Shown here: piece after piece, positions 38,159-45,296 of the stretch | How the letters are laid out: each line of letters starts with the position of its first letter | How positions within the stretch are numbered: the stretch's first letter is position 1 | Assembly (NCBI RefSeq): GCF_017876545.1 | Contig: NZ_JAGIOD010000001.1 | Coordinates: forward strand, 2,542,001 to 2,606,000 | DNA length: 64,000 nt | DNA from: Brachybacterium sacelli | GTDB taxonomy: Bacteria; Actinomycetota; Actinomycetes; Actinomycetales; Dermabacteraceae | Direction of reading: 5' to 3' | Program-made: the position numbers and the translations under genes | Notes under the pieces: model-generated | Told to the model about the DNA's origin: nothing | The model's input: the letters and a program-made list of their open reading frames with translations, nothing else | The model's database searches: none

Positions 38159-41098
38159 TCAGACCACGATGTTCACGATCTTCGGGGCGCGCACGATGAC
38201 CTTGCGGATGCTCTGTCCCTCGAGCAGCTCCTGGACCCGCTCCTCGGCCATGACCCGGGCCTCCAGATCGGCCTCGGAGATTTCCGGGTCGACCTCGATC
38301 CGGTGGCGCACCTTGCCCTTGACCTGGATGACGCAGGTGACGGCGTCGGCCTTGACCAGCTCGGGATCGGCGACCGGGTAGGCGGCCCGAGAGATCGAGC
38401 CCTCGTGGCCCAGTCGCGACCACAGCTCCTCGGCCAGGTGCGGAGCCATCGGCGAGACCATCAGCACCAGGGGTTCGACGGCCTCGCGCGGAGACGCACC
38501 GAGTTTGGTCAGGTGATTGACCAGCTCGATCAGCTTCGCGATCGCGGTGTTGAAATGCATCTGGGACATGTCCCGGGCCACGCCGTCGATCGTGCGATGC
38601 GTGGCCTGCTTCGTGGCCAGGTCCGCCGGCTGGTCCGAGGCCGACAGCTCACCGGTCTCCTCATCGACCACCAGGCGCCACAGCCGCTGCAGGAACCGCT
38701 GCGAGCCGACCACGGCCCGGGTCTCCCAGGGCCGCGACAGGTCCAGGGGGCCCATCGACATCTCGTACACCCGCAGGGTGTCCGCGCCGTACTCCTCGTA
38801 CATGTCGTCCGGGGCCACCGCGTTCTTCAGCGACTTGCCCATCTTCCCGTACTCCTGGGTGACGGGCTCGCCCTGGTAGGTGTAGGTGCCGTCCTCGCCC
38901 ACGACGACCTCCTCCGCCGGGACGTAGACACCGCGGGAGTCGGTGTAGGCGTAGGCCTGGATGTAGCCCTGGTTGAACAGGCGGTGGTACGGCTCCTGGC
39001 TGGAGACGATGCCGCGGTCGAACAGCACCTTGTGCCAGAAGCGCGCGTACAGCAGGTGCAGCACCGCATGCTCCTGCCCGCCGACGTACAGATCCACGCC
39101 GCCGACGCCGCCGGAGGTGCGCGGGCCCAGCCAGTACTCCTCGTTCTCCGGCCGCACCAGGACGTCGTCCTCGGTGGGGTCGATGTAGCGCAGGTGGTAC
39201 CAGGACGATCCCGCCCACTGCGGCATCGTGTTCGTCTCGCGCAGGTAGCGCTTGGTCCCCTCTCCCAGGTCCAGCTCGACCTCGGCCCACTCGGTGGCCC
39301 GCGACAGCGGGGTCTGGGGTTCGGTGTCCGCATCCATCGGATCGAAGGTCTTGGGGGAGAAGTCGGGGACCTCCGGCAGGTCCACCGGCAGCATCGACTC
39401 CGGCAGCGCGATCGGCACCTCGGGGCGCTCGGGGTCGTAGACGATCGGGAACGGCTCACCCCAGTACCGCTGCCGGGAGAACAACCAGTCCCGCAGCCGG
39501 TAGGTGGTGCGGGCGCGACCGAAGCCCTCGCTCCGGGCGTACTCGGTGGCGCGGTCCTTCGCCTCGTCCTTGTCCAGGCCGTTGAGGTCCAGGCCGGCGC
39601 TGGCGGAGTTGATCTTCACGCCGTCCCCGGTCCAGGCGCCGCCGGTGAAGTCCTCGGGCGGGCGCACTGTGCGGATCACCGGCAGCTCGAACCTGGTCGC
39701 GAACTCGAAGTCGCGCTCGTCCTCGGCGGGGACCGCCATGATGGCGCCGGTCCCGTAGCCGGTCAGCACGTAGTCCGCGGTGAACACCGGCAGCTCCCGC
39801 CCGTCCATCGGGTTGGTGGCGAACACGCCGGTGAACACCCCGGTCTTCTCCCGGCCCTCGGCCGTGCGCTCCTCCTCGCCCAGAGCCGCGGCGCGCACCC
39901 GGTAGGCCTCGACGGCCTCGCGCGGACCGGCGGCGCCCGCGGTCCAGGCCTCGTGGGTGCCCTCGGGCCACTGCGCCGGCAGCGCCGACGGGTCCGCCAG
40001 CAGCGGGTGCTCCGGCGAGAGCACACAGAAGGTGGCCCCGAACAGGGTGTCCGCGCGGGTGGTGAAGACGTCGAAGGTCGCGTCCTCCAGAGCGGGGACG
40101 GGGAAGGTGATCTGCGCACCGTGACTGCGACCGATCCAGTTGCGCTGCATCGTGCGGATCGACTCCGGCCAGTCCACCCGCTCCAGGTCATCGATCAGAC
40201 GGTCGCCGTAGGCGGTGATGCGCATGTTCCACTGGCGCAGGCGGCTGCGGAAGACGGGGAAGTTGCCGCGCTCGGAGCGTCCCTCGGCGGTGACCTCCTC
40301 GTTGGCCAGCACGGTGCCCAGGCCCGGGCACCAGTTCACCGGCGTCTCGGAGATGTACGCCAGGCGGAAAGCATGGGCCAGGTCCGCGATCTCCGCCTCG
40401 GTGGCGCCGGGCACGTCCGCGGCCGCACGCCCCGCCCAGGCCGCGGGCAGCTCGACGCCCTGGCGGTCGGCTAGCGCGAAGGGGTCGACGCGCCCCGCGC
40501 GCAGCTCGTCGCGCAGCTCCGCGATGGGACGCGCCTTCCCGGTGATGCCGTCGGCGTTCGGGGCCGAAGGGTCGTACCAGGAGTCGAAGATCTGCAGGAA
40601 GATCCACTGCGTCCACTTCACGAACTCCGGATCGGTCGTGGCCAGGGAGCGCCGCGAGTCATGGGACAGCCCCAGGCGGTGCAGCTGGCGGCGCATGGTC
40701 GCCACGTTCGCTTCGGTCGTGGTGCGTGGATGCGTCCCGGTCTGGACCGCGTACTGCTCGGCCGGCAGCCCGAAGGCGTCGTAGCCCATCGTGTACAGCA
40801 CGTTCTTGCCCAGCATGCGCTGGTGGCGGGCGATCACGTCGGTCGCGATGTATCCCAGCGGATGGCCCACGTGCAACCCCGCCCCCGAGGGATACGGGAA
40901 CATGTCCATGATGTACATCTTCTCGGCATGGCCACCGGAGGCAGCGCTCGCGGCCTGCTCGAGCGTCTCGGCGCTGCCGCGCAGGGACCCCACCGGGTTG
41001 TCGGCGTGGAAGGTGCCGTCCTCGTCCCAGCGCCGCTGCCAGCGCCGCTCGATCTCGTCGGCCACCGAGGCGGTGTAACGGTGCGGGGCCTCGCTCAT
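38159..41098 (-). CDS. leuS: Leucine-tRNA ligase
   Basis: Charges tRNA-Leu and edits mischarged products. At 979 residues it is bacterial type. The HIGH signature is in [12 protein letters not shown] (about residue 76). The CP1 editing domain has [12 protein letters not shown] (the threonine-rich site), and [10 protein letters not shown] lies before it. The KMSKS-type loop reads KMGKSLKN (about 752). ATG 41098 has GGAGGA upstream; a longer in-frame start inside the leader is not needed. It is preceded by a leader with three consecutive Leu codons and a terminator, so it is probably leucine-regulated. Confidence 0.97.
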
Positions 41099-41157
41099 GA
41101 GTGAATCGTCCTCCGGAGGATCAGTGCGGCAGGTGCCGCCAGGCGTCTCGTGACATG

Positions 41158-41182
41158 AAAAAACCCCCGCGCAGGCGAGGGG
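41158..41182 (-). terminator. Attenuator terminator in the leuS leader
   Basis: On the minus strand, CCCC T CGC (41182-41175), loop CT, GCG C GGGG (41172-41165) form a hairpin with one mismatch, then an extra G and six Ts (41163-41158). It lies 60 nt before the leuS start, after the leader peptide. Confidence 0.7.
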
Positions 41183-41220
41183 AGCCGCACCGGTGCCCAC
41201 AGGTGCGCACCGCAGGCGCT

Positions 41221-41286
41221 TCAGGTGCGCAGGGCCGGCGCGGGCCTTGTCCGATGCGGCTGCCTAAGCAGGAGCCGTCGAGTCAC
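41221..41286 (-). CDS. Leader peptide of leuS with Leu-Leu-Leu (predicted)
   Basis: On the minus strand, GTG at 41286-41284 opens a 21-codon frame. It reads [21 protein letters not shown] and stops at TGA 41223-41221. The three Leu codons (CTC CTG CTT, 41274-41266) lie at positions 5-7. A TAGGAT box lies 6 nt upstream of the GTG, so the peptide would be translated from a leaderless mRNA. A hairpin TGCGCACC/GGTGCGCA (41231-41224 and 41211-41204) has the stop codon in its loop. Ribosome stalling on these codons when leucyl-tRNA is scarce is expected to affect the terminator at 41158-41182. The peptide has not been verified. Confidence 0.7.
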
Positions 41287-41292
41287 GCCTGC

Positions 41293-41298
41293 ATCCTA
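41293..41298 (-). promoter_or_regulatory. -10 box TAGGAT of the leuS leader
   Basis: TAGGAT on the minus strand ends 6 nt before the leader GTG at 41286. No good -35 is seen; the expected position overlaps a hairpin. Confidence 0.5.
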
Positions 41299-41303
41299 CC
41301 GTG

Positions 41304-41339
41304 CCCCTGCCGCGACCCGAGGAAGGGTCTCGGCAGGGG
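41304..41339 (-). terminator. Terminator behind the sugar-binding-protein gene
   Basis: Arms CCCCTGCCG/CGGCAGGGG (41304-41312, 41331-41339) and inner GACCC/GGGTC, one mismatch between them and a 6-nt loop. It ends the transporter operon just upstream of the leuS promoter. Confidence 0.6.
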
Positions 41340-41387
41340 TGCGGGGACACCGGCTCGTCGGAGGGGCTCGTTGCCTCCACAGAGGAT

Positions 41388-42788
41388 TCAGCGCTTGGGC
41401 ATCCGTAGGTTCGGGTCAGGTTCGCCGAAACCGTCCGGGAGCCGGAACGGGCAGAACTGCTGCATCGTCGGGTCCACGTACTGCTGGGCCTCCTTCACCA
41501 GGTGCTCGGGAGTGTCCGAGGCCTGGGTGAGGCTGCCCTGCATCGTCTCCATCGCGTCCCAGAGCTTCGTACCGACTGGCAGTGGGGGCCTGGATCTGGT
41601 GACGTCCAAGAGTTCTACGAAGAACGCTATGTCAGGATTCCACCCCGCGGGATCGGCGATTGTTTCAAGATGGGTGGGTATGCTGGCCAATTGTGGAGTG
41701 AGGATCTTCTGTCCCTCTGGTCCTGCGTAGAACTTGAGAAATTCCCAGGCGGCCCTGGACATACTGGATCCCTTGGGCATGGAAAGAGCAAATCCGCCCG
41801 ACCAGCTGTAGGGGTCGGTTCCCTCGTCGGGGACGGGGAGGTAAGTGACGGCATAATTCATGTCGGGCTTGTAATCCGCGAGAGCCTGGACACCCGATGG
41901 ATTGGTGATCTGGAGCAACTGGCGGCCCGAGAAGAAGGAGGTCTGCGTCGGCGGGGCGTTCTCCGGTTGGTACGTCGCTTTGAACGCATCCAGCCGCGGG
42001 AAGTCCAGTCGCTCGATCCAGCCGGCGTACATCTCTGCCACGGCCAGCATCTCGGGCGAGTCCAGCAGCATGCGGCAGGTCTCGTTGGAGAAGAAGGGGA
42101 CGTCAGCGGCCATCGCCCAGACGATCAGCTTCGCCTGATCGTCCCAAGGGATCCAGGTCACCCGTTCGTAGGTTCCGTTCTTGTCCTGCACGTTGAAGGA
42201 GTCGTTGATCTCCCACACCTGCTCATAGGACAACGGTCCGTTCTTCGGGTCGAAGAGTACGGGGTCGAGGCCGGCGTCATTCACTAGATCCATGTTCACG
42301 TACACGGCACGAGTGTCGGTACTTACTGGCAGCCCGTAGTACTGGCCGTCGTAGTACAGTTCGTCGGCGGCGAATTTGATCCACCCGGACATGAACTCCT
42401 CGGCACTGACTCCCTCGTACTCCTCGATGAGGCCGTCGATGGGTTCGAGGAGTCCGAGGGAGGCAAATTGTGGACTGTTGAAGCGATCCATCCAGTAGAT
42501 GTCCGGACCAGTTCTGCCGCGCACAGCAGTGATTGCTCCGGAGGCGTCACCCTCGCCGTTGGACGGCACCTGGGACACCTCGATCTTCACGTCCGGATGT
42601 TGTTCGGTGAAAGCCTCGATGACCTTAGCTTCTTTGTCCGAATCTGCAGCTCCAATGCCCCAAAGTCGCACGGTGTTAGGGTCGCGGTCCTCACCGACGG
42701 GATTACTGCACCCGACGATCGAGCCGCCCGCGATGGTGACACCGGCGCCGGCGCCGATGGCGCGCAGCAGGGATCGACGATCGATCAC
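41388..42788 (-). CDS. Sugar ABC transporter substrate-binding lipoprotein, copy 1
   Basis: This extracellular solute-binding protein of family 1 (466 residues) should deliver a carbohydrate to the permeases upstream. The N-terminus has a twin-arginine-like MIDRRSLLRAIGAG and a lipobox (SIVGC, about residue 27), so it is probably a lipoprotein. The start is GTG 42788 with GGAGAGTAAGA ahead; the longer frame is unlikely. It is a paralogue of the next gene and shares a 116-bp identical block with it. Parts of the DNA (about 41600-41760) look lower in GC than the rest of the window. It is the last gene of the operon, after a 175-nt gap. Confidence 0.87.
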   Translation of the reverse strand: MIDRRSLLRAIGAGAGVTIAGGSIVGCSNPVGEDRDPNTVRLWGIGAADSDKEAKVIEAFTEQHPDVKIEVSQVPSNGEGDASGAITAVRGRTGPDIYWMDRFNSPQFASLGLLEPIDGLIEEYEGVSAEEFMSGWIKFAADELYYDGQYYGLPVSTDTRAVYVNMDLVNDAGLDPVLFDPKNGPLSYEQVWEINDSFNVQDKNGTYERVTWIPWDDQAKLIVWAMAADVPFFSNETCRMLLDSPEMLAVAEMYAGWIERLDFPRLDAFKATYQPENAPPTQTSFFSGRQLLQITNPSGVQALADYKPDMNYAVTYLPVPDEGTDPYSWSGGFALSMPKGSSMSRAAWEFLKFYAGPEGQKILTPQLASIPTHLETIADPAGWNPDIAFFVELLDVTRSRPPLPVGTKLWDAMETMQGSLTQASDTPEHLVKEAQQYVDPTMQQFCPFRLPDGFGEPDPNLRMPKR

Positions 42789-42963
42789 TCTTACTCTCCA
42801 AGTCTGATGTCGCTGATGAGGAAGTGAGTCGCCGACGACGCGTGCGAAGGCGGCAACGGGCCTCTCCTCCGGTCGCACTTCGGATCGCGTCTGAAACAAC
42901 CCGTCGGCGGGGCGGCGGTCCGGATCCTGCTGAGAGGCCAAGACCAGGCGGGCGGACGGACGA
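42789..42963 (-). other. Spacer between the two binding-protein genes with a likely permease-end remnant
   Basis: The last part of this spacer (near 42790-42830), read on the minus strand, includes HFLISDIRLGE then a stop. It resembles the end of the permease gene (YFVSGITLGGFK then a stop) that precedes copy 2. This suggests the duplicated unit carried the permease 3' end with it. No other feature is seen. Confidence 0.4.
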
Positions 42964-44376
42964 TCAGGAGCCTGGTACCTCTTCGACCGGGAAATTCGGG
43001 TCCGGCTCCCCGAAGCCCTCGGGGAGCGTGATCGGACAGAACTGCTGCATTGTCGGGTCAACGTACTGCTGAGCTTCCTTCACCAGGTTCTCCGGAGTGT
43101 CCGAGGCCTGGTTGAGGCTGCCCTGCATTGTCATCATGGCGTCCCACAGCTTCGTCCCCACTGGCAACGGCGGCCGCGACCTGGCCACGCCCAGCAGCTC
43201 CACGAAGAACTTGATGTCCCGGTTCCAGCCCTCCGGATCCTTGACGGTCTCGATGTTCGTGGGGATGCGGCTGATCTGCGGCATGAGGATCTTCTGGCCC
43301 TCATAGCCGGCGTAGAACTTGAAGAAGTCCCAGGCGGCCTTGGACATGCTCGCCCCCTTGGGCATCGTCAGGGCGAAGCCGCCCGCCCAGGTGAAGGGCT
43401 CGTCGCCCTCATTCGGAACCGGCAGGTGGGTGACCGTGTACTCCATGTCCGGCTTGTAGTCAGCCTGCCCTTGCACGCCCCAGGGGCCGGTGATCTGGAA
43501 CAGCTGACGGTCCGAGAAGAAGGAGGTCTGCGTCGGCGGGGCGTTCTCCGGTTGGTACGTCGCTTTGAACGCATCCAGCCGCGGGAAGTCCAGTCGCTCG
43601 ATCCAGCCGGCGTACATCTCTGCCACGCCCAGCATCTCCGGGGAGTCCAGCAGCGTATGGCAGGTCTCGTTGGAGAAGAAGGTGACGTCATTGGCCATGG
43701 CCCACATCAGCAGAGAGGCCTGATCGTCCCAGGGGACCCAAGTCACCCGCTCATAGGTGCCACGCTCGTCCTGCACGTTGAAGGCATCGTTGATCTCCCA
43801 CAGCTGTTCGTAGGACATAGGGCCGTTGGCCGGGTCGAGCAGCGACCGGTCGATGCCTGCCTCGTCGGCCAGTCCCAGATTCACGTACATCCCGCGGGTG
43901 TCGGTATCCATCGGAAGCCCGTAGTACTGGCCGTCGTAGTACAGCTCGTCGGTGGCGAACTTGACCCAACCGGCCATGAATTCCTCGACGCTGACGTCCT
44001 CGTGCTCCTCGATGAGGCCGTCGAGGGGCTCGAGCAGACCAAGGGAGGCGAACTGAGCTCCATTGAACCGGTCCATGAAGTAGACGTCCGGACCGGTGCG
44101 GCCGCGCACGGCGGTGATCGCGCTGGAGGCGTCGCCCTGGCCATTCGAGGGCACCTGGGAGATTTCGATCTTCACATCGGGGTTCTGCTCGGTGAATGCC
44201 TCGACGACCTGGGCCTCTTTCTCGGCGTCGGAGGCCCAAATGCCCCAGACGCGCACGGTGTTGGGATCCCGGTCATCGCCAACAGGACGGCTCGTGCAGC
44301 CGACGATCGAGCCGCCCGCGACGGTGACGCTGGCGCCGGCGCCGAGGGCGCGCAGCAGAGTTCGACGATCGATCAC
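42964..44376 (-). CDS. Sugar ABC transporter substrate-binding lipoprotein, copy 2
   Basis: This family 1 solute-binding protein (470 residues) is very similar to copy 1 from end to end, with shared blocks such as DRFNGAQFASLGLLEP, ATYQPENAPPTQTSFFS and FCPITLPEGFGEPDPN. Twin-arginine-like N-terminus MIDRRTLLRALGAG and a lipobox SIVGC point to export and lipidation. The start is GTG 44376 with GGAGG ahead, and it overlaps the permease stop by 4 nt, so this copy is coupled to the permeases. A longer open frame upstream only reads through the permease gene. Confidence 0.9.
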   Translation of the reverse strand: MIDRRTLLRALGAGASVTVAGGSIVGCTSRPVGDDRDPNTVRVWGIWASDAEKEAQVVEAFTEQNPDVKIEISQVPSNGQGDASSAITAVRGRTGPDVYFMDRFNGAQFASLGLLEPLDGLIEEHEDVSVEEFMAGWVKFATDELYYDGQYYGLPMDTDTRGMYVNLGLADEAGIDRSLLDPANGPMSYEQLWEINDAFNVQDERGTYERVTWVPWDDQASLLMWAMANDVTFFSNETCHTLLDSPEMLGVAEMYAGWIERLDFPRLDAFKATYQPENAPPTQTSFFSDRQLFQITGPWGVQGQADYKPDMEYTVTHLPVPNEGDEPFTWAGGFALTMPKGASMSKAAWDFFKFYAGYEGQKILMPQISRIPTNIETVKDPEGWNRDIKFFVELLGVARSRPPLPVGTKLWDAMMTMQGSLNQASDTPENLVKEAQQYVDPTMQQFCPITLPEGFGEPDPNFPVEEVPGS

Positions 44377-45296
44377 TTGAAACCTCCGAGGGTGATGCCG
44401 CTGACGAAGTAGCGCTGGAAGATGAAGAACAGGATCACCAACGGCAGCAGGACCAGGAACGAGGCGGCCATGAGCAGGTTGAACTGGACGTCTTGTGAGT
44501 TCACGGAGCGGAAGACCTCCATACCGATGGAGAGCGTCTGCTTGCTCTGGTCCTGCAGGTAGATCAACGGGCCCATGAAGTCGTTCCAGGTGCCCACCGC
44601 GGAGAAGATCGCGATCACGGTGACGGCCGGACGTGCCGTGGGGAACACGATGCGCCAGGCGATCGTCCACTCGCTGGCTCCGTCGACCCGCGCGGCGTCG
44701 AGCATGTCTTTCGGGGTCTGCAGCATGAACTGGCGCAGCAGGAAGGTGAAGAATCCTCCGGCGAACAGCGCCGGGGCGATCAGCGGGACCCAGGTGTTGA
44801 CGAACCCGAGCGCCGCCCACATGTCGAACATGGGGATCAGGGTCACCGGGAAGGGCAGGAACAGCGTGGCCAGCACGACGAAGAACACCTTGTTGCGCCC
44901 CGGCCAGTCGACGCACGCGAAACCGTAGGCGACGACGAAGTTCGAGACCACGCTGAAGACGACGACGCTGATCGTGATGATCGCGCTGTTGCGGAAGAAG
45001 GTCCAGAACGGCATCACCGTGACCGCGTCGGAGAAGTTCTCCCACCTGAACTCGGTGGGGAACAGGGTCGGCGGGAACTGGGCCAGCTCCTCCGGTGTCT
45101 TCAGCGCCGAGATGAGCATCCAATACAGGGGCAGGGAGAACAGCAGCAGCACCGCAAGCATGACCAGGCGTGAGATCCAGGCACTGACGCCAGTGGGGCG
45201 GGAGCCGTCGGCATTGCGCCCGTAGTTCGAGCGAGACTTGAGCTTCGGGGCGCTGCCGAGGTCCTTGGTCCCGGAGTCGAGAGTGTTGAGAGCCAT
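44373..45296 (-). CDS. Carbohydrate ABC transporter permease (MalG-like)
   Basis: This membrane component of a sugar importer has 307 residues. Six hydrophobic helices follow a charged 35-residue N-terminus. The inner-membrane EAA loop that contacts the ATPase reads DAARVDGASEWTIAWRIVFPTARP (about residues 198-221), and the MalG-type end is YFVSGITLGGFK. The start has AGG ahead. The stop overlaps the binding-protein start, and 19 nt separate it from the first permease. No ATP-binding subunit is in the window; importers of this class often use a shared MsmK/MsiK ATPase. Confidence 0.93.
   Translation of the reverse strand: MALNTLDSGTKDLGSAPKLKSRSNYGRNADGSRPTGVSAWISRLVMLAVLLLFSLPLYWMLISALKTPEELAQFPPTLFPTEFRWENFSDAVTVMPFWTFFRNSAIITISVVVFSVVSNFVVAYGFACVDWPGRNKVFFVVLATLFLPFPVTLIPMFDMWAALGFVNTWVPLIAPALFAGGFFTFLLRQFMLQTPKDMLDAARVDGASEWTIAWRIVFPTARPAVTVIAIFSAVGTWNDFMGPLIYLQDQSKQTLSIGMEVFRSVNSQDVQFNLLMAASFLVLLPLVILFFIFQRYFVSGITLGGFK

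Follow-up and report, generated by a model that had tools for sequence, protein, structure and literature searches.

The DNA analysed here, a 64,000-nucleotide stretch of Brachybacterium sacelli (the window), carries on its minus strand a large open reading frame which, from LeuS sequence features, we take to be leuS, the gene for leucyl-tRNA synthetase. Upstream of it lies a short leader frame reading GTG ACT CGA CGG CTC CTG CTT AGG CAG ... ACC TGA, with three consecutive Leu codons, followed by the two strands of an 11-bp long-range helix that includes one U:G pair (A:B) and by a predicted intrinsic terminator (Table 1). The letters and coordinates that the initial annotation had given for the TAGGAT box, the GTG, Leu codons 5-7, both helix strands, the terminator and its six T residues hold exactly on reading the sequence. 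Transcription probably starts at the GTG itself, as suggested by the spacing of the -10-like box, which would make the mRNA leaderless. The region between the leader and the gene upstream of it holds an inverted repeat, CCCCTGCC..GGCAGGGG, at 41304-41339, just 5' of the -10 box and over the expected -35 region. Further upstream on the same strand, at 41388-44400, are two tandem similar ORFs, which by their sequence features presumably encode solute-binding proteins of sugar ABC transporters, and the GC content of 40001-44000 (0.649) is below that of the other 4-kb blocks of the window.

Table 1 Features of the leuS leader region in the window.
Feature	Position	Strand	Remarks
-10-like box, TAGGAT	41293..41298	minus	6 nt ahead of GTG
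Leader ORF, 21 codons	41221..41286	minus	GTG start at 41286; stop TGA at 41223-41221
Regulatory Leu codons CTC CTG CTT (codons 5-7)	41266..41274	minus	
Strand A of long-range helix, AGCCGCATCGG	41251..41261	minus	begins 4 nt past last Leu codon
Strand B of long-range helix, CCGGTGCGGCT	41183..41193	minus	ends 1 nt ahead of terminator stem
Intrinsic terminator (predicted)	41158..41181	minus	7-bp stem CCCTCGC/GCGGGGG (41181-41164; one U:G, loop CTGC) and T6 (41163-41158)
leuS, leucyl-tRNA synthetase, regulated gene	38159..41098	minus	ATG at 41098; ORF and relatives by protein search

The last of the three Leu codons, CTT, makes up 1.06% of the 1,322 Leu codons in the 28 long ORFs of the window. 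Folding of the 200-nt leader gave only a modest excess of stability over shuffled sequences (z of -2.06, with 8 of 200 shuffles equal or better), so that a comparison with relatives was needed to decide. A terminator and a spurious short ORF lying together by chance would agree with this modest excess and with the ease with which hairpins arise in GC-rich sequence, but this explanation is refuted by the conservation and covariation described below, and we give it practically no credence.

We searched 58 related genomes with the LeuS N-terminus and inspected 50 leuS upstream regions, 36 from the same genus (Brachybacterium, judging by named neighbours) and 14 from other families of the order, leaving out the 8 genomes with only weak LeuS matches. 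A leader with a TANNNT box, an ATG or GTG start and a Leu run was present in 36/36 same-genus regions and in 5/14 of the others. Within the genus, the box lies 6 nt ahead of the start in 35 regions and 7 nt in one, the Leu codons occupy positions 5-7, the first of them is variable (CTC, CTT, CTG, CTA or TTG) and codon 7 is CTT throughout; the conservation of Leu codons in related leaders, on which the initial annotation had staked its proposal, was thus found in all 36 genomes. A fixed rule (TANNNT, 5-8 nt, ATG or GTG, an ORF of 5-26 codons and a run of one residue within codons 2-11) detected a Leu run of at least two in 41 and of at least three in 39 of the 50 regions, which are not independent since 36 represent a single genus. 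Under the same rule, runs of at least two of the other 19 amino acids occurred in 0-2 of the 50 regions, except for Arg with 17, whose pairs we take to belong to these same leaders, and runs of at least three of any residue but Leu occurred in none of them. The observation made in the window is far beyond chance.

The same-genus leaders fall mainly into two lengths, with 14 of 8 codons and 19 of 21 codons next to single leaders of 12, 15 and 20 codons. Those of 8 codons end at a TAG that overlaps strand A and takes the place of codon 9, while the 20 leaders of 20-21 codons have a sense codon here, such as CAG, so that the frame continues. The helix spanning the stop, which the initial annotation had listed among the parts and which is present in the window (TGCGCACC/GGTGCGCA), was found in 20/20 leaders of 20-21 codons, 3/3 of 12-15 codons and 3/18 of 8-11 codons in a search run without a shuffle control; as it is missing in 15 of these 18 shorter leaders, we rejected it as a part of the conserved core. 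A stem followed by a T run was located, by sequence prediction, in 35 of the 36 same-genus leaders and is degenerate in the remaining one (G030). At the leuS locus of this species (L028), the leader and the A:B helix are kept, and the T run and the usual terminator stem are gone.

The long-range helix was assessed in a covariation alignment of 41 elements (40 distinct), in which A:B was paired in 96.8% of cells and 4 of its 11 pairs had changed on both sides. Taken together with the terminator, 95.3% of cells were paired, a value that fell to 34-49% when the partner strand was slid by 1-3 columns. Among 500 shuffles of the whole structure, none reached the observed pairing and 3 reached the count of both-sided changes; the measure of further pair types was matched by 49. 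RNAalifold, unaided, proposed most of A:B and the terminator. In the 54 distinct A/B pairs the core of the helix had also changed on both sides (GC to AT, CG to TA), and in three leaders (L170, L268 and L299, the first two from one genus) the last codon specifies Cys instead of the usual Arg and strand B carries the matching change, e.g. GCCGTG/CACGGC, so that pairing is kept while the peptide changes. The 11-bp helix with one G:U that had been proposed just past the Leu codons is therefore both conserved and covarying, and the relatives likewise support the proposal that the leader is rich in Leu, lies on an mRNA predicted to be leaderless and is followed by an intrinsic terminator. An RNA element of another kind, such as a T-box, a riboswitch or a protein-binding site, could be considered because a long-range helix and a terminator are by themselves usable by any sensor. 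The letters of the element that are conserved and unpaired are, however, codons of the leader frame, the 64-kb window gave no Rfam match at gathering score (T-box included), and the 11 sub-threshold Rfam hits around the leader belonged to unrelated families (E of 0.22-7.7), which leaves this explanation very improbable.

A covariance model (R1), built on the alignment from one genus and five relatives, matched 127 of 394 genomes of the class and 42 of 137 genera. We fetched 129 of the 138 listed matches, leaving out 4 that were already included and 5 weak second matches, and found a LeuS motif downstream in 116. Five of the 13 matches lacking this motif (L168, L172, L173, L176 and L179) carry a leader beginning MRTRILVLG, of the IlvL type; that weak matches of a leuS model are IlvL-type leaders hints at a layout common to leucine and ilv leaders. 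With a parser that favoured candidates having a box 3-10 nt upstream, a leader with a Leu run was obtained for 114 of the 116 leuS-linked matches, in 16 families and 34 genera, the exceptions being L161, which reads VASQQQRLIGPR, and the truncated L178. The -10 spacing was 6 in 92 and 7 in 22 of the 114 leaders. The last Leu codon was CTT in 111 of 114 (one four-Leu leader being scored by its third codon), a share that is partly selected because all R1 training sequences have CTT in the Leu run. Two of the leaders (L175 and L177) gave no joint solution for A:B and terminator, which left 112 elements.

The 148 genomes of the class that were searched with LeuS itself comprised 51 with and 97 without an R1 match. 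Among 40 of the latter, hand-picked mostly to represent each family or genus once, a leader of this kind preceded leuS in 9; CTT is the last Leu codon of 5 of these leaders, lies further inside the run of 2 and is missing from 2. Two types of LeuS are preceded by the leader (as in G129 and G117), one resembling that of the window closely (often 950-1000 aa, E of about 1e-70 to 1e-80) and the other distantly (often 830-860 aa, E of about 1e-30). Among 80 named leuS loci, all 21 labelled Brachybacterium (20) or 'Actinomycetales bacterium' (1) matched R1, as did Georgenia ruanii and one Dermabacter metagenome assembly; the remaining 57 had no R1 match at E of 1 or below. On a second contig of the window genome (G000:C2, near 1431507; L181:950-1120) there is a further leader, of the leuA type, with a TACCGT box and the frame ATG CGT GGA TCG CTG CTC CTG CTT AGC CGC CGC GAC GGG ACC TGA (MRGSLLLLSRRDGT), whose final Leu codon is likewise CTT and whose downstream gene we take to be leuA.

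An alternative explanation is that leader and terminator set a basal read-through via leaderless translation in general, without a response specific to leucine. In the available text of PMC1262725, leader codon mutations at S. coelicolor ilvB are described as without effect and those at leuA as having effects inconsistent with attenuation, which would suit such an explanation. Set against this are the recurrence of the Leu run before leuS throughout those 16 families and 34 genera, the lack of runs of at least three of any other residue in the 50 regions of the relatives, and the use of a codon that accounts for about 1% of Leu codons in the window; we therefore regard a purely basal role as improbable.

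The geometry of the element is narrowly constrained at both ends of the helix. Among the same-genus elements, 4-5 nt separate codon 7 from strand A, and strand B ends 0-2 nt before the terminator stem (the junction in G030 was left unscored because its terminator is degenerate). Across the class, the distance from the Leu run to A is 4-5 nt in 105 and 3-5 nt in 110 of the 112 elements. The gap between B and the terminator, within the range of 0-6 nt covered by the joint search and under a small gap penalty, is 0 nt in 65, 1 nt in 28, 2 nt in 18 and 3 nt in 1, i.e. 0-2 nt in 111. The loop between A and B ranges from 18 to 58 nt across the 40 elements of the relatives set, with one 3-nt loop that is probably misassigned. 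Possible extension of the terminator into B was 0 nt in 107/112 elements and never exceeded 2 nt; for A:B, extension into the terminator was 0 nt in 106/112 and never exceeded 1 nt, so an antiterminator that shares bases with the terminator and excludes it was not found in the 112 class-wide elements. The statement of the initial annotation that all parts of ribosome-mediated attenuation are present was therefore too broad, as helix and terminator barely overlap and the usual mutually exclusive antiterminator is missing. Because the exclusion step lacks shared bases, we limit our own claim to an element that works like a ribosome-mediated attenuator.

The footprint assigned to the ribosome began about 14 nt ahead of the P-site codon and reached about 12 nt beyond the first nucleotide of the A site. 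We folded the 112 elements with the ribosome-covered nucleotides held unpaired. A:B was predicted with a probability (P) of at least 0.8 in 111/112 elements without a ribosome and in 110/112 when the first Leu codon occupied the A site; with the ribosome at the last Leu codon, where it covers about 2-6 of the 11 nt of A depending on the footprint assumed, the median P was 0.17, and with the ribosome at the stop codon P was below 0.2 in 107/112. The terminator had P of at least 0.8 in 107, 110, 108 and 103 of the 112 elements in these four states. A ribosome at the stop codon covers A wholly in 106 of the 112 leaders and partly in 5. Within the same genus it leaves A free in 20 of 35 leaders, with full cover in 14 and partial cover in 1; the subclade of the window has its stop 13 codons further downstream, and a ribosome terminating there leaves A free. 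The modelled probabilities suggest that the position of the ribosome controls A:B, yet that A:B and the terminator generally do not compete for bases. Base-pair competition between them was rejected as a general account, since the predicted terminator persists in 103-110 of 112 elements in every state; in the relatives set of 40, P(terminator) fell below 0.5 in some state in G000, G010, G011, G031 and G033.

The minimum-energy fold of the window RNA pairs the Leu-codon region with the terminator, and its P(terminator) is 0.03 for the free RNA, rises to 0.89-0.92 when a Leu codon occupies the A site and is 0.0 when the stop codon does. As modelled, this equilibrium fold is the reverse of a useful switch, although a local hairpin may form ahead of such long-range pairing. 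Pairing of the Leu codons with the 3' arm of the terminator was rejected as part of the element because it is not conserved, P(terminator) of the free RNA being below 0.5 only in G000, G010 and G033 of the relatives set of 40.

The explanation that we consider best, with a probability of roughly 0.55, is a ribosome-operated transcription attenuator that would set leuS expression by the supply of charged Leu-tRNA, in which a stalled ribosome allows A:B to form and A:B sterically blocks the terminator. RNA polymerase would start at the GTG, and a 70S ribosome would load on the bare 5' end and follow. If Leu-tRNA is short, the ribosome would pause at the Leu codons, its front having reached the edge of strand A or entered it slightly, and A would pair with B once B emerges. 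One end of A:B would then lie flush with the 5' base of the terminator stem, at a nearly fixed distance from the stalled codon, and the duplex and the stalled ribosome would occupy the site in the polymerase exit channel at which the terminator has to close; termination would fail and leuS would be read. If Leu-tRNA is ample, the ribosome would cross A to the stop and shield A during the synthesis of B and the terminator, and transcription would end. Leader conservation, covarying A:B pairs, the narrow spacings from the Leu codons to A and from B to the terminator, the place of the stop codon and the reported leaderless start of the S. lividans ortholog point in this direction. As the calculated ribosome positions switch A:B but, in most elements, not the terminator, base-pair competition does not explain the switch, and a clash imposed by RNA polymerase or by the stalled ribosome might do so. 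The flush helix would either hinder closure of the terminator within RNA polymerase, perhaps together with the docked ribosome, or help it by stacking; the complete cover of A by a stop-codon ribosome in 106/112 leaders argues for hindrance. Several points weigh against the hindrance reading. The shifted stop in the subclade of the window leaves A free under a terminating ribosome. The CTT is the last Leu codon, where a stall covers most of A, which suits the opposite polarity. The predicted terminator is formed at equilibrium in nearly every state of most elements, so that the switch rests on the putative steric step. The P(terminator) values modelled for the window RNA are opposite to those required. 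The 49 shuffles that matched the measure of further pair types, and the S. coelicolor ilvB leader, whose codon changes are reported in PMC1262725 to be without effect, count on the same side.

The initial annotation had proposed that opposite polarity, with a stalled ribosome blocking A:B. In this scheme A:B would stack under the terminator and aid termination. A ribosome stalled at the CTT would cover the terminator-proximal half of A, A:B would fail to form and leuS would be read; with leucine present, the ribosome would leave, A:B and the terminator would form jointly and transcription would stop. The rare CTT is fixed in the position nearest A (36/36 in the genus, and the last Leu codon in 111/114 leaders of the class, subject to the bias of the model), a stall there lowers A:B as calculated above, the helix lies flush with the stem as in coaxial stacking, and A is left uncovered in the long-leader clade once translation has terminated; the fixed rare last codon and the free A of this clade leave room for help by stacking. 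However, the terminator alone is predicted to be stable in nearly all elements and all states, the stop lies inside or next to A in most members, so that A would be covered just when termination needs help, a stall at the first Leu codon keeps A:B intact, and the rise of P(terminator) on stalling in the window RNA fits neither polarity. With the footprint assumed, the claim that a stalled ribosome blocks the helix should thus hold for a stall at the last Leu codon and not for one at the first, and in most members the ribosome at the stop codon should be the blocker. We consider stacking help unlikely, though less so than a purely basal role, and probably less likely than hindrance, a preference that is weakest for the 21-codon leader of the window itself.

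More tentatively, hindrance could represent a kind of attenuator that operates without base-pair competition across much of the class. The helix would act as a clamp that holds the stalled codon 3-5 nt from one of its ends, with its strands ending 0-2 nt from the terminator whatever the loop length, and would bring duplex and ribosome to the base of the terminator, blocking its closure in the exit channel, with the near-invariant rare CTT as sensor or timer. We hold this wider reading to be possible but distinctly less probable than attenuation as such.

Several known systems resemble the element in part. Classical enterobacterial trp, his and leu attenuators likewise have tandem regulatory codons, a stop near strand 2 and an intrinsic terminator; their strand 3 belongs to the terminator stem, in contrast to strand B here, and a leaderless start also sets the leuS element apart. 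For leuS itself, attenuators consisting of leader peptide, antiterminator and terminator were predicted in Streptomyces avermitilis and S. coelicolor by Seliverstov et al. 2005 (PMC1262725), whose antiterminator may or may not correspond to A:B. In S. lividans, the available part of PMC8079986 describes a leader peptide before leuS, LeuL2 (MRAVRLLLSEPR), as leaderless by RNA-seq and followed by a hairpin and uridines. These Streptomyces systems share with the window the gene, a Leu-Leu-Leu leader and a terminator before leuS, and differ in genus and, for LeuL2, in length (12 codons against 21 in the window). In one family (f37), the LeuL2 peptide MRAVRLLLSEPR is encoded unchanged by 26 of 39 parsed leaders, and the other 13 differ by one residue; as R1, built on the relatives set, finds these LeuL2-type leaders, leader, helix and terminator upstream of leuS are homologous. 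The leuS leader is real, and it is a further case of the actinobacterial leader type already predicted in Streptomyces.

Outside leuS, the C. glutamicum ilvBNC 'fast attenuator', as presented in the accessible part of PMC11857589, also has a leader with a regulatory CUU and side-by-side hairpins, and pausing at the control codons is said there to allow the antiterminator; its hairpins share a GCC trinucleotide, whereas those of the leuS element share almost no bases, and gene and amino acids differ. According to the available portion of PMC13236596, M. tuberculosis ilvB1NC is likewise preceded by a terminator and by a leader frame containing codons for branched-chain amino acids, and the antiterminator strand is said to be masked when a ribosome sits at the stop, which is the polarity favoured here; in contrast to the leuS element, terminator and antiterminator are drawn as mutually exclusive, and gene and codons differ. 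Leaderless polycysteine leaders in mycobacteria are named among the references in that portion. The LEU element of actinobacterial leuA leaders also has a Leu-codon run in a short leader, but the text available from PMC1262725 describes it as having no obvious terminator and a pseudoknot that covers the ribosome-binding site of leuA, whereas the leuS element has a terminator. In the accessible part of a 50-genome survey (PMC11109978), the terms leucyl, leader peptide and tRNA synthetase gave no hit, and queries aimed at leuS leaders in open-licence papers yielded no earlier description of how the element is distributed in the class, of the CTT being fixed or of the flush helix.

The comparison extends published predictions for a few Streptomyces to a conserved regulatory RNA in about a third of the genomes of the class that were searched. 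It also offers a clean setting in which to ask whether termination can be controlled by a helix that lies against a terminator but has no bases in common with it, and why the sensing run keeps one rare Leu codon fixed.
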